The translations under genes were made by a program, and so were the position numbers. This document shows, in pieces, positions 24,392-30,757 of a stretch of 63,748 nucleotides of DNA; position 1 is the first letter of the stretch; every line of letters begins with the position of its first letter. The DNA comes from an uncultured Clostridium sp. (GTDB lineage: Bacteria; Bacillota; Clostridia; Clostridiales; Clostridiaceae): assembly GCA_902785295.1 (NCBI GenBank), contig CACZYK010000024.1:1-63748 (forward strand), given 5' to 3'. Below the pieces are notes generated by a model. That model saw only the letters and a program-made list of their open reading frames with translations. It ran no database searches and was not told the DNA's origin.

Positions 24392-24463
24392 ATGGGGTCA
24401 CTTATTACTTTGCTTTTTCCGTCGACAAGCTCCAAGTCAACACAAAGTAATAAGTGACCCCAT
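24392..24463. repeat. Constant-loop hairpin element, copy 1
   Basis: A perfect 21-bp stem (24392-24412 with 24443-24463) encloses a 30-nt loop with the core GTCGACAAGCTCCAAGTC (24421-24438), preceded by TTCC. The stem sequence is unlike copies 2-4 while the loop core is nearly identical. It lies directly behind the dnaC-like stop and may also stop transcription, though no U-run follows. Confidence 0.9.
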
Positions 24464-24470
24464 CTAACTA

Positions 24471-24505
24471 AATGAAAGGAAATTTCTAACCCCATTCCTT
24501 TCATT
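24471..24505. repeat. Inverted repeat, 11-bp stem
   Basis: AATGAAAGGAA (24471-24481) and TTCCTTTCATT (24495-24505) are perfect complements around a 13-nt loop. No conserved loop core; possibly a terminator for the dnaD-dnaC operon or an independent element. Confidence 0.65.
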
Positions 24506-24577
24506 AAACTTTATCGTTAATATTAACAAGTTATATAAAATTTAGCAAGCACCATAATTTCCTAATAATATAAAAGC

Positions 24578-24646
24578 AGAGTGAATATATTATTTTGCTC
24601 TTCCGTCGACAGGCTCCAAGTCGGGACAAAATAATATATTCACTCT
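24578..24646 (+). repeat. Constant-loop hairpin element, copy 2
   Basis: A perfect 20-bp stem (24578-24597 with 24627-24646) and a 29-nt loop with core GTCGACAGGCTCCAAGTC (24605-24622). Stem and loop nearly match copy 3 in reverse orientation, so copies 2 and 3 form inverted repeats around the tRNA array. Confidence 0.9.
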
Positions 24647-24669
24647 CCTCAAACAAAAGGAAATTTTCT

Positions 24670-24701
24670 AAAAAAAAAATTGCTTCAAAAACTTGAAGCA
24701 A
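24670..24701 (-). terminator. Terminator of the tRNA operon
   Basis: On the reverse strand TTGCTTCAA-GTTT-TTGAAGCAA (24701-24680) forms a perfect 9-bp stem followed by nine or more T (24679-24670), right after the last tRNA. Confidence 0.93.
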
Positions 24702-24705
24702 CTTT

Positions 24706-24782
24706 TGGCGACTCAGAAGGGGCTCGAACCCTCGACTTCCAGCGTGACAGGCTGGCACTCTAACCAACTGAGCTACTGAGCC
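24706..24782 (-). tRNA. tRNA-Asp (GTC), copy 1
   Basis: A 77-nt cloverleaf with acceptor GGCTCAG/CTGAGTC, anticodon GTC in CTGTCAC, T-arm GGTTCGAGCC and encoded CCA. Identical to the copy at 25078-25154. Last gene of the operon, 4 nt before the terminator stem. Confidence 0.97.
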
Positions 24783-24789
24783 ATAACTT

Positions 24790-24865
24790 TGGTGGGCACA
24801 ACAGGGCTCGAACCTGTGACCCTCTGCTTGTAAGGCAGATGCTCTCCCAGCTGAGCTATGCGCCC
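24790..24865 (-). tRNA. tRNA-Val (TAC), copy 1
   Basis: A 76-nt cloverleaf with acceptor GGGCGCA/TGTGCCC, anticodon TAC in CTTACAA and encoded CCA. Identical to the copy at 25163-25238; spacers of 7 nt on both sides. Confidence 0.97.
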
Positions 24866-24872
24866 AAAGCAA

Positions 24873-27739: not shown

Positions 27740-27763
27740 ACTATCCTCCTAATTTTATAAAAA

Positions 27764-27791
27764 AGGTAGAGCAATTCATATTACCCTACCT
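27764..27791 (-). terminator. Terminator after DUF1858 gene
   Basis: Reverse-strand AGGTAG (27791-27786) pairs with CTACCT (27769-27764) around a 16-nt loop that may extend the stem, followed by a six-T run. Confidence 0.75.
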
Positions 27792-27805
27792 CTTCTTAAA
27801 GTTTA

Positions 27806-27988
27806 TTACTTATTTAAAGCTTCTAATAATGCATCTAAATCAATTCCATGACCTAAAGCTGCTTCTTCTATAGATTCTCCTTGAGCTGAAGGACATCCAA
27901 CGCAAAACATACCAAAATCCATGAATATTTCTGCTTTAGCCATATCATTATTAACAACTTCACCTATTGTCATATCCTTAGTAATCAT
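27806..27988 (-). CDS. DUF1858 small disulfide-type protein (60 aa)
   Basis: ATG 27988 is preferred over the in-frame GTG at 27997, because AAGAGGTG, which includes that GTG, is its SD. The sequence MITKDMTIGEVVNND...GMFCVGCPSAQGESIEEAALGHGID is the DUF1858 (hybrid-cluster-associated) pattern with a CxxC at about 32-35, which may bind metal or undergo redox. It lies 25 nt after the purA stop and is probably cotranscribed. Function unknown. Confidence 0.9.
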   Translation of the reverse strand: MITKDMTIGEVVNNDMAKAEIFMDFGMFCVGCPSAQGESIEEAALGHGIDLDALLEALNK

Positions 27989-28013
27989 CAAAATCACCTC
28001 TTATTATAAAATA

Positions 28014-29272
28014 CTAAATTTCATTAACCTTCATAGTTTGGTCTCTCTTTGGACCAACTGATATATAAGAAATTTTTGTTCCTGTAAATTCTTCTATTCT
28101 CTTTAAATATTTCTTTGCATTTTCAGGTAATTCTTCATAGCTTCTTGCATCTGCTACAGAACTATCCCATCCATCAAACTCTTCATATACAGGTTCACAT
28201 AAAGCTACATCCTCTAAGCTTGCTGGGAAATAATCTATAACTTCTCCATTTAACTTATAACCTACACAAACCTTAAGCTTTTCAAGACCTGCTAATGTAT
28301 CTATTTTAGTAACAGCTAATGAAGTTAATCCACTTACTCTAGCTGCAGATTTAACTATAACTAAATCAAGCCATCCACATCTTCTAGCTCTTCCTGTTGT
28401 AACTCCATATTCATGACCATTTTGTCTTATCCATTCTCCAGTTTCATCTTCTAATTCTGTTGGGAATGGTCCTTTTCCTACTCTTGTTGTATAAGCCTTT
28501 GTTATTCCAACCTATACCAACACCATTACTAACTCCACCAGCAGTAGTGTTAGATGATGTTACATATGGATAACTTCCGTGGTCTATATCTAGAAGCATA
28601 CCTTGAGCTCCTTCAAATAATACATTTTTATCTGCTTTTATTGAATTATACACAGCAACAGAAGTATCTTTTACAAAAGGTCTTATCTTTTCTGCATATA
28701 CTTTATAGTCGGCTAATATTTCTTCTACATCTAAAGCTTCTCCACCAAAAACCTTAGTTATATATGCATTTTTAGCTTCTACATTTTCTCTAAGTAATGC
28801 TTCAAAAACTTCTTCATGTAAAAGGTCACATACTCTTATACCACATCTTTCAACCTTATCAGTGTAACATGGTCCTATACCCTTTTTAGTAAATATCATT
28901 TTTACCTCTTGCCTTTTCTTTTAGTTCATCTAAAACCTTATGATAAGGCATTATTAATTGTGCTCTATCACTTATTATAAGCTTCTCAGGAGTAACCTTT
29001 ACCCCTTCATTTTCTAAATAACCAATCTCTTCAAATAAGGCTTTAGGATCTACAACAACCCCATTACCTATAACATTTAGCTTATCATCATATAATATAC
29101 CTGAAGGTATTAAATGAAGCTTGTATTGTCTATCTCCAACCTCTACAGTATGACCTGCATTGTTACCTCCTTGAAATCTAACAACTACCTCAGCTTCTTC
29201 TGCAAGATAATCTGTCATCTTTCCTTTTCCTTCATCGCCCCATTGAGCTCCTAAAACAATAAATGCTGACAT
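28014..29272 (-). pseudogene. purA: Adenylosuccinate synthetase PurA, broken by two small deletions
   Basis: PurA converts IMP plus aspartate to adenylosuccinate, the first step to AMP. Three frames read in succession match the whole protein: [20 protein letters not shown] (start, ATG 29272) to ARGKNDI; then [18 protein letters not shown] to GVSNGVGIG; then [20 protein letters not shown] to [15 protein letters not shown] (TAG 28014-28016). Junction 1 (near 28890) lacks about 5 nt of GTTG codons in the phosphate-binding loop. Junction 2 (near 28510) lacks about 23 nt covering PTKxxxVV. The 1259 nt plus 28 equals 429 codons, the normal length. If real, the cell could not make AMP from IMP; assembly error must be excluded first. 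Confidence 0.88.
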
Positions 29273-29363
29273 ATACCATTAGCCTCCTTGTGAAAATATC
29301 CATATCTACCTTTCATACTAGCAAACTCAACTTAATAGGTCAACTATAATGTCGAATATTTTT

Positions 29364-29392
29364 TTGCAAAACTTGAAAATAATTCGTATAAT
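29364..29392 (+). promoter_or_regulatory. Promoter of malic enzyme gene
   Basis: TTGCAA (29364-29369), 17-nt spacer, TATAAT (29387-29392), about 90 nt before the start codon. Confidence 0.75.
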
Positions 29393-29482
29393 ATATATTG
29401 TTGTACAAATTTTATTTTATAAATGCAAATTAATAAAAGTTAATACTTTGATATAAAATAACTATAATAAGGAGTGTTTTTA

Positions 29483-30655
29483 ATGACTATTTATGAAGAA
29501 TCTTTAAAATACCACGAAAAGCTAAGAGGAAAAATTGCAGTAAACTCATTAGCTAAAGTAAATAATGCTGATGACCTTAGCCTTGCATATACTCCAGGGG
29601 TTGCAGAACCTTGTAGAGAAATACATAAAGACCCTTCAAAAGCTTATATATACACAAGAAAATGGAATAATGTTGCTGTAATATCTGATGGTACTGCTGT
29701 TCTTGGGCTTGGAGACATAGGACCTTTAGCTTCCTTACCTGTTATGGAGGGAAAATGTGTATTATTTAAAGAATTTGCAGATGTTGATGCTTTTCCAATA
29801 GTTCTAGATACTAAAGATGTTGATGAAATAGTTGAAACTATAGTAAGAATTTCTCCATCTTTAGGGGGAATAAACTTAGAAGATATATCTGCTCCAAGAT
29901 GTTTTGAAATAGAAAGAAGATTAAAAGAAAGATTAGATATTCCTGTTTTCCATGATGACCAACATGGTACTGCTGTGGTAGTTCTTTCTGGAATAATAAA
30001 TGCATTAAAGGTTGTAAAAAAGAACCTAGCTGACCTAAAAATTGTTATAAATGGTGCTGGTTCTGCTGGTACTGCAATCTGTAAGCTTCTTCTTGCATCT
30101 GGTGTAAAGAATATTGTAATGTGTGATATTAATGGAGTTATACACGAAGGTGGAATTTTACCTAATGATAACTTAAAAGAACTTGCTAAAATAACAAATC
30201 CAAATAAAGAAACTGGTCTTTTAAAAGATGCTATTAAAAATGCAGATGTATTTATAGGTGTTTCTGCTCCTAATATAGTTTCTAAAGAAATGGTTGCTTC
30301 AATGAATAAAGATGCTATACTTTTTGCTATGGCAAATCCTACTCCAGAAATATTCCCAGAAGATGCTCTTGAAGCTGGAGCTAAGGTTGTTGGAACTGGA
30401 CGTTCAGATTATCCAAACCAAATCAATAATGTATTAGCTTTCCCTGGAATATTTAGAGGTGCTTTAGATGTTAGAGCAAGTGAAATAAATGAAGAAATGA
30501 AAGTTGCTGCTGCTTATGCTATTGCAAATTCAATCTCAGACGACGAAATAACAGCTGAGAATATAATTCCTAAGGCATTTGACCTTAAGGTGCAAAAAGC
30601 TGTTGCAGAGGCTGTTAAAGCTGCTGCAATAAAGACTGGAGTTAATAAAATTTAA
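29483..30655 (+). CDS. NAD(P)-dependent malic enzyme
   Basis: A 390-residue enzyme of the short bacterial malic-enzyme type: tyrosine motif SLAYTPGVAEPCREI, metal-binding PVFHDDQHGTAVV, NAD(P)-binding INGAGSAGTAICKLLL and ANPTPEIFPEDA. It decarboxylates malate to pyruvate, supplying NAD(P)H; cofactor preference cannot be settled by eye. ATG 29483 is chosen over the in-frame GTG 29474, whose first base ends the SD AAGGAG. Monocistronic, with element copy 4 beginning 16 nt after the stop. Confidence 0.93.
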   Translation: MTIYEESLKYHEKLRGKIAVNSLAKVNNADDLSLAYTPGVAEPCREIHKDPSKAYIYTRKWNNVAVISDGTAVLGLGDIGPLASLPVMEGKCVLFKEFADVDAFPIVLDTKDVDEIVETIVRISPSLGGINLEDISAPRCFEIERRLKERLDIPVFHDDQHGTAVVVLSGIINALKVVKKNLADLKIVINGAGSAGTAICKLLLASGVKNIVMCDINGVIHEGGILPNDNLKELAKITNPNKETGLLKDAIKNADVFIGVSAPNIVSKEMVASMNKDAILFAMANPTPEIFPEDALEAGAKVVGTGRSDYPNQINNVLAFPGIFRGALDVRASEINEEMKVAAAYAIANSISDDEITAENIIPKAFDLKVQKAVAEAVKAAAIKTGVNKI

Positions 30656-30671
30656 ACTTTAGCTTAATTCA

Positions 30672-30757
30672 AAAATAGTAGTTACCTTATATTTATTCAG
30701 TCGTTCCGTCGACAGGCTCCAAGTCACGCCTTCATAAAATAAGGTAACTACTATTTT
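30672..30757 (+). repeat. Constant-loop hairpin element, copy 4
   Basis: A perfect 19-bp stem (30672-30690 with 30739-30757), possibly extended past one bulge, encloses the core GTCGACAGGCTCCAAGTC (30708-30725). The stem sequence is unlike copies 1-3. It lies behind the malic enzyme gene. Confidence 0.9.

Follow-up and report, generated by a model that had tools for sequence, protein, structure and literature searches.

The 63,748-nt window analysed here (positions 1 to 63,748 of the forward strand of contig CACZYK010000024.1, assembly GCA_902785295.1, from an uncultured Clostridium sp.) contains four hairpins with a common loop core, TCCGTMGACARGCTCCAAGTC, carried by different stems. They fall into two families. 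Family A, to which copies 1 to 3 belong, is a unit of about 184 bp made of a hairpin and a tail able to form further stem-loops, and it is clearly mobile. Family B, to which copy 4 belongs, is a palindromic unit located mostly directly past stop codons. We think that these hairpins are probably modular, non-autonomous and non-coding mobile stem-loop elements that resemble the EFAR and bcr1 repeats and are likely recognised via their loop. The features of the window on which this work is based are the following:

24392..24463, + strand: copy 1, family A hairpin, core at 24418-24438 (pattern match and fold)
24464..24572, + strand: tail of copy 1, of the family A kind but diverged (...TTTCCTAATAATATAAA), with an approximate right end (read from the sequence)
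24578..24646, + strand: copy 2, hairpin with stem A2, core at 24602-24622 (pattern match and fold)
25463..25646, - strand: complete family A element of 184 bp, contains copy 3 (filled/empty site alignment, limits imprecise by a few bases of a T run)
25463..25572, - strand: tail of the copy 3 element (CTAAC...GGAAATT...TTTCCTATAGAAT; sequence reading, empty-site comparison and alignment)
25573..25645, - strand: copy 3, hairpin with stem A2, core at 25599-25619 on the - strand (pattern match and fold)
30672..30757, + strand: copy 4, family B hairpin, core at 30705-30725 (pattern match and fold)

Four hairpins with one loop core

A first-pass annotation of this DNA had described four hairpins with a common loop core and unrelated stems, and all four are present. 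With up to three mismatches allowed, the core matched four times in the whole window, each time in one of these hairpins, and never in 100 shuffles. Copies 1 to 3 fold to perfect stems of about 20-26 bp (z of -6.7 to -8.7 against shuffled sequence), and copy 4 to a long outer stem with an internal loop below the core (z of -11.1). Folding and comparison bear out that the stems of copies 1, 2/3 and 4 are unrelated, copies 2 and 3 having one stem in common. Two details had to be amended. The stems had been called perfect, which is true of copies 1 to 3, but copy 4 has its internal loop and most hairpins have a pyrimidine mismatch near the loop. The constant core had been put at 18 nt; its invariant part consists of TCCG and GCTCCAAGTC spaced by 4-12 variable bases.

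The hairpins lie close to genes. Copy 1 adjoins the stop codon of the upstream + strand open reading frame (ORF, end at 24390), and copy 4 starts about 17 nt past the stop of a + strand ORF (end at 30655) that looks by eye like a malate dehydrogenase gene. Copy 3 is inverted relative to the three others, which are on the + strand, and the tail of copy 2 is reduced to a short remnant that extends to about 24669. Both copy 3, read on the + strand, and copy 4 (TTTTATT) have a stable hairpin followed by a T run, which is the form of a putative intrinsic terminator. Among the relatives, copy 1 was seen in SUG910 (hereafter G146), with no match in RUG296 (G147), and copy 2 was not seen at the corresponding place in either.

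Distribution and families

The first-pass annotation would have been refuted by a lack of further copies, but these exist. The own genome holds 48 core matches with up to two mismatches (reversed pattern, 0) and 80 copies of the exact 10-mer GCTCCAAGTC (reversed, 0). The constant loop part, written as TCCG-N(4-12)-GCTCCAAGTC, was counted 53 times in the own genome, 48 times in G146, 19 in G147, 15 in G043, 13 in G148, 4 in G149 and once in G150, and its reversed control gave 0 in each of these seven Clostridia genomes. The distribution is narrow and patchy. In a first sample of the family, the core was found in 2 of 146 genomes, the own genome (51) and G043 (7). A named scan returned 69 stretches, 50 of them in five Clostridia metagenome-assembled genomes (MAGs), namely SUG910, RUG296, S1_Bin_METABAT__240_1, L_E1_T20_A_bin.72 and AS22ysBPME_211; the other 19 were in unrelated organisms and were set aside as chance after reading. 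A class-wide core search matched 36 of 391 genomes, with more than two hits in the own genome only. Since the reversed control also matched in 36 genomes (as counted from the listing), we take the class-wide matches outside the own genome as chance.

Searches of other collections gave no match to a core pattern in viral contigs, to the copy 3 element in plasmids, or to copy 4 in phages. At the gathering score, Rfam 15 matched only tRNAs and RAGATH-18 in the window, nothing on the hairpins, and had no match in eight further loci; sub-threshold matches were treated as chance. Among the titles and passages covered by literature searches, a text search for the core included, none describes it, and there was no bacterial-repeat paper among the matches listed for that text search.

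By eye, the core is found in at least six unrelated stems. Stem types A and A2 are those of copies 1-3, B is that of copy 4, C was found in G043, D in G148 and G149, and E in G150. The mismatch near the loop is conserved: 97 of 108 hairpins (which include near-identical orthologues; 3 of 111 were dropped as weak) have a pyrimidine-pyrimidine column within seven aligned columns of the core. For 90 of these 97, column 3 or 4 is the first to show it, and further out from the core such columns amount to 1.2%. Two degenerate A-type hairpins, L095 near 3200 and L217 near 1600, have loop changes that are by eye mainly C-to-T and G-to-A like.

Family A inserts beside hairpins

The 184-bp insert at 25463-25646 has copy 3 at one of its ends, and filled/empty site alignment shows this insert to be cleanly missing in G147. 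Family A is therefore mobile, this insert being absent from a close relative. A search of G146 and G147 with eight joined pairs of flanks revealed empty sites for L140 (both genomes), L025 (G146) and L138 (G147), the remaining five giving filled, diverged or partial matches. On either strand, the insert folds to the core hairpin and further stem-loops. Some copies (L188, L190 and L191, on G000:C54 and C66) have lost the loop core and a large part of the middle to deletions, both ends being kept.

The insertion points are A/T-rich places, mostly adjoining terminator-like hairpins. We folded the 55-nt flanks of 29 of 31 family A copies, from the own genome and relatives and some of them orthologous, and obtained a mean of -11.0 kcal/mol on the right, against -3.5 on the left and -3.8 for shuffled right flanks. 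Many family A copies thus adjoin terminator-like hairpins, and about one third of the right flanks have no strong hairpin. Family A follows a same-strand gene in 15 of 35 copies, with the stop codon within 70 nt of the core in 11 of 35. At L140, AATAAAA flanks the insert on both sides.

Both arms of the stems change together

The first-pass annotation had claimed a constant loop with variable, self-complementary stems, and both families support it. In family B, covariation was counted in those 26 of the 42 distinct copies that form one length class. When aligned, 97.0% of their cells pair, versus at most 47.0% in slid versions. Two-sided changes affect 14 of 26 pairs versus 8.3 in shuffles, and none of 500 shuffles reached 14. 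The outer stem comprises 468 cells, of which 51 carry two-sided changes, 1 carries a one-sided change and 13 do not pair; in the inner stem, two-sided cells number 22 and one-sided ones (G-U) 7. The outer stem of 45 B copies contains only 6 G-T and 3 A-C cells, so that wobble intermediates are scarcely apparent and neither strand is clearly favoured. In family A, the alignment of 23 of the 28 long copies shows a common tail and core, yet 16 have stem A and 7 the unrelated stem A2.

Relatives differ at the same loci. We compared family B copies of relatives ten times, at nine loci and over 18 columns each, and found 10 two-sided changes and 1 one-sided change. All the two-sided changes fall in 4 of the 10 comparisons. 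Two of these four (L022/L098 and L028/L081) come from tandem clusters, whose members are not securely orthologous, and another (L195/L200) shows a change of AA to TT that makes no base pair in either copy. At three family A sites, the own genome has one of the two stem types and G146 the other, one site being matched by both flanks (L109/L188) and two by the left flank only (L001/L103 and L075/L137). L137 is a chimera, with the left arm of A2 and the right arm of A. Stem and loop can thus differ between orthologous loci.

Template-switch mutation of hairpins yields two-sided changes without one-sided steps, according to a study of this process (PMC8794818). It is a mutational process, not an element family, and would account for the two-sided changes described here. 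The stem pattern fits a combination of arm-to-arm template switching, recombination through the common core and selection for pairing, which cannot be separated with the present data.

Family B at gene ends

Family B copies follow a same-strand gene in 50 of 53 cases, and the stop codon is within 70 nt of the core in 36 of 53; several of the others are later members of tandem clusters. These counts take the longest ORFs of at least 70 aa as genes and cover those B copies that have a gene called to their left, omitting copies with four mismatches, unclassified copies and those with no left gene. By a simple ad hoc score, 16 of the 21 B copies of the own genome have no other terminator-like hairpin in the following 200 nt. 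Might these hairpins be structured RNAs, or signals of the 3' untranslated region, whose loop is bound by a protein and which act on mRNA ends, their spread being secondary? The location past stop codons, the frequent lack of another terminator and the seven G-U cells of the inner stem would fit. We nevertheless find this rather unlikely, because the outer stem has no clear wobble bias, core and T run are read on opposite strands in family A, and Rfam had no match at the gathering score.

A second repeat in the loops of family B

In some B copies, the loop encloses a sequence some 75 nt long. We suspected a large gene-bearing insert, which was ruled out: the sequence is a short nested repeat. 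Nine copies of the own genome match a 104-nt query over almost all of the query's length, and G146 and G147 have three copies with about 47 nt more. The loci examined contain it at 23 distinct places, none of them in the window, and at L361 and L363 it is outside B hairpins. Its left part, GACTCRC..TCGCTGRGTA, is a separate repeat present in 32 of 206 genomes of the family, with no hit of the reversed control among the matches listed, and viral contigs had no match to the nested-repeat pattern. A separate modular repeat, GGAAACYCGACTCRC..TCGCTGRGTAAGT..CTCACTTA, frequent in some genomes of the genus and located within the loop of some B hairpins, occurs at L361 (G000:C54), L362, L363 and L368-L386.

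The B loop can therefore carry another element. The nested repeat could result either from an insertion event or from an ancestral loop that was long at first and shrank later. It is the best support for the idea, raised in the first-pass annotation, that an element enters hairpin loops; family A does not behave in this way, as it goes beside hairpins and not into their loops. One may go further and suppose that the core alone is mobile and enters the loops of pre-existing terminator hairpins, so that the differing stems are simply the old terminators of each place. This would explain why the same core is in at least six unrelated stems, and a second repeat is indeed located inside B loops. 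It is an unlikely explanation, since the empty sites of family A lack the whole hairpin and tail, many copies of a family have a common stem pattern, and the loci read contained no core-less A or B hairpin.

Mobilisation

Read on one strand, family A has a hairpin and a T run at its end, and it adjoins another T run, which is reminiscent of an RNA element of the SINE (short interspersed nuclear element) type that a reverse transcriptase copies into T runs. We regard such an origin as very unlikely: the reverse transcriptase profile RVT_1 had no match in two of the seven carriers, G149 and G150 (MAGs that may be incomplete), and the reverse transcriptases of the own genome and of G043 look by eye to be of different kinds. 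The single RVT_1 match of the own genome is a 355-aa ORF at L224 (G000:C11), by eye of the diversity-generating retroelement type. That the hairpins are ordinary intrinsic terminators, alike by chance, would suit their T runs and their location past stop codons, but is already refuted by the counts of the core (four in the window versus 0 expected by chance) and of GCTCCAAGTC (80 in the genome versus 0 reversed).

Our preferred explanation is a mobile stem-loop element, probably recognised via its loop. The loop and the pyrimidine mismatch would be the recognition site of a mobilising factor acting in trans, whose substrate is probably a DNA hairpin in extruded or single-stranded form. If so, the outer stem need only pair and would be free to change, while arm-to-arm copying in replication and selection for pairing would keep it nearly perfect. 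The hairpins are also predicted to end the transcription of adjacent genes, which would explain why they are tolerated at gene ends. The first-pass annotation had proposed a protein that reads the loop while the stem is regenerated; that a protein reads the loop is here an inference. More specifically, though this is doubtful, an unknown recombinase acting in trans may read only the loop (and the mismatch) of the extruded DNA hairpin. Unrelated stems across genera of Clostridia would then come under one mobilising system, and stems would be swapped as blocks, both arms at once.

Several results weigh against the mobile element. Mobility was seen for family A only, and copy 4, of family B, has an identical stem and core in all three relatives (G146 and G147 among them). 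Two-sided change is absent in 6 of the 10 family B comparisons between relatives. The strand of the core relative to the T run is opposite in A and B. A permutation test over 29 family A copies gave no statistical support for target duplication (p 0.69), and terminal inverted repeats were not found in 28 family A copies (end-to-end score of 6.6 versus 7.7 when shuffled). No mobilising gene was found among the candidates looked for in the carriers. Neither a Y1 transposase (PF01797, unmatched in G146, G150 and the own genome) nor a reverse transcriptase is supported as the common partner, each being missing in some carriers, and no transposase next to the cores was recognised in a reading by eye, not by profile search, of the 25 largest clusters of 536 ORF pieces.

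These hairpins are of interest in several ways. In the bacterial palindromes with which we compared them, the ends or the stems are conserved, whereas in the present hairpins it is the loop, and not the stem, that is kept from genus to genus, a pattern that points to a hairpin-loop recogniser yet to be found. The two-sided stem changes offer a natural and countable test of single compensatory steps against template switching and recombination, and the nested second repeat shows the modular growth of such elements.

Other features of the window

The tRNA cluster at 24709-25297, between copies 2 and 3, has two repeated tRNAs. A third is seemingly repeated in truncated form (about 25241-25297), at a place where G147 has the full-length form. 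At 51984-52057 (- strand) lies a RAGATH-18 structured RNA (74.5 bits, gathering score 44.9). A gene resembling by eye that of adenylosuccinate synthetase, at 28444-29272 (- strand), is in two overlapping frames (28886-29272 and 28444-28899), and this split may be an assembly error.

Comparison with known systems

The first-pass annotation knew of no named family with such a design, but two are close to it, EFAR and bcr1. According to an abstract of 2007, EFAR is said to be modular, to have known empty sites and to integrate at unrelated sequences that fold as stem-loops. A loop conserved across unrelated stems is not known among its traits. Efa-1 (EFAR) of Enterococcus faecalis is an intergenic repeat of about 163 bp with a pair of adjacent stem-loops (PMC2267715) and is counted among miniature inverted-repeat transposable elements (MITEs) (PMC3733652). 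A unit of about 170 bp with two stem-loops side by side is a trait that only family A, with its 184-bp insert, has in common with EFAR. Many insertion points have a strong hairpin beside them, but this target hairpin is not consumed as it is in EFAR. EFAR also belongs to another genus, and the likeness is drawn from its description.

Repetitive extragenic palindromic (REP) sequences, the mosaic elements (BIMEs) that they compose and the repeats tied to RAYT transposases (of the IS200/IS605 kind) are intergenic palindromes with complementary stem changes (PMC3733652). They have a constant end tag and stems of 5-13 bp, whereas here the loop is constant and the stems are about 20 bp long. Membership in this group was rejected: PF01797 is missing in the own genome, G146 and G150, and the constant motif is in the loop, with no GTAG/CGTC tag at the foot. 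Family A is non-coding, mobile and present in many copies, as MITEs are, but has no terminal inverted repeats. The bcr1 repeat of the Bacillus cereus group is described as a small non-coding mobile repeat with a predicted structure, its mobility tied to TTTAT motifs (PMC6542083). The junctions here are TTTTAT-like, and at L140 AATAAAA stands on both sides, a resemblance to be read with the p of 0.69 over 29 copies in mind. The constant-loop, variable-stem design does not figure in the passages that describe it so, and bcr1 too is likened from its description. By description, then, the design appears nearest to those of EFAR and bcr1.

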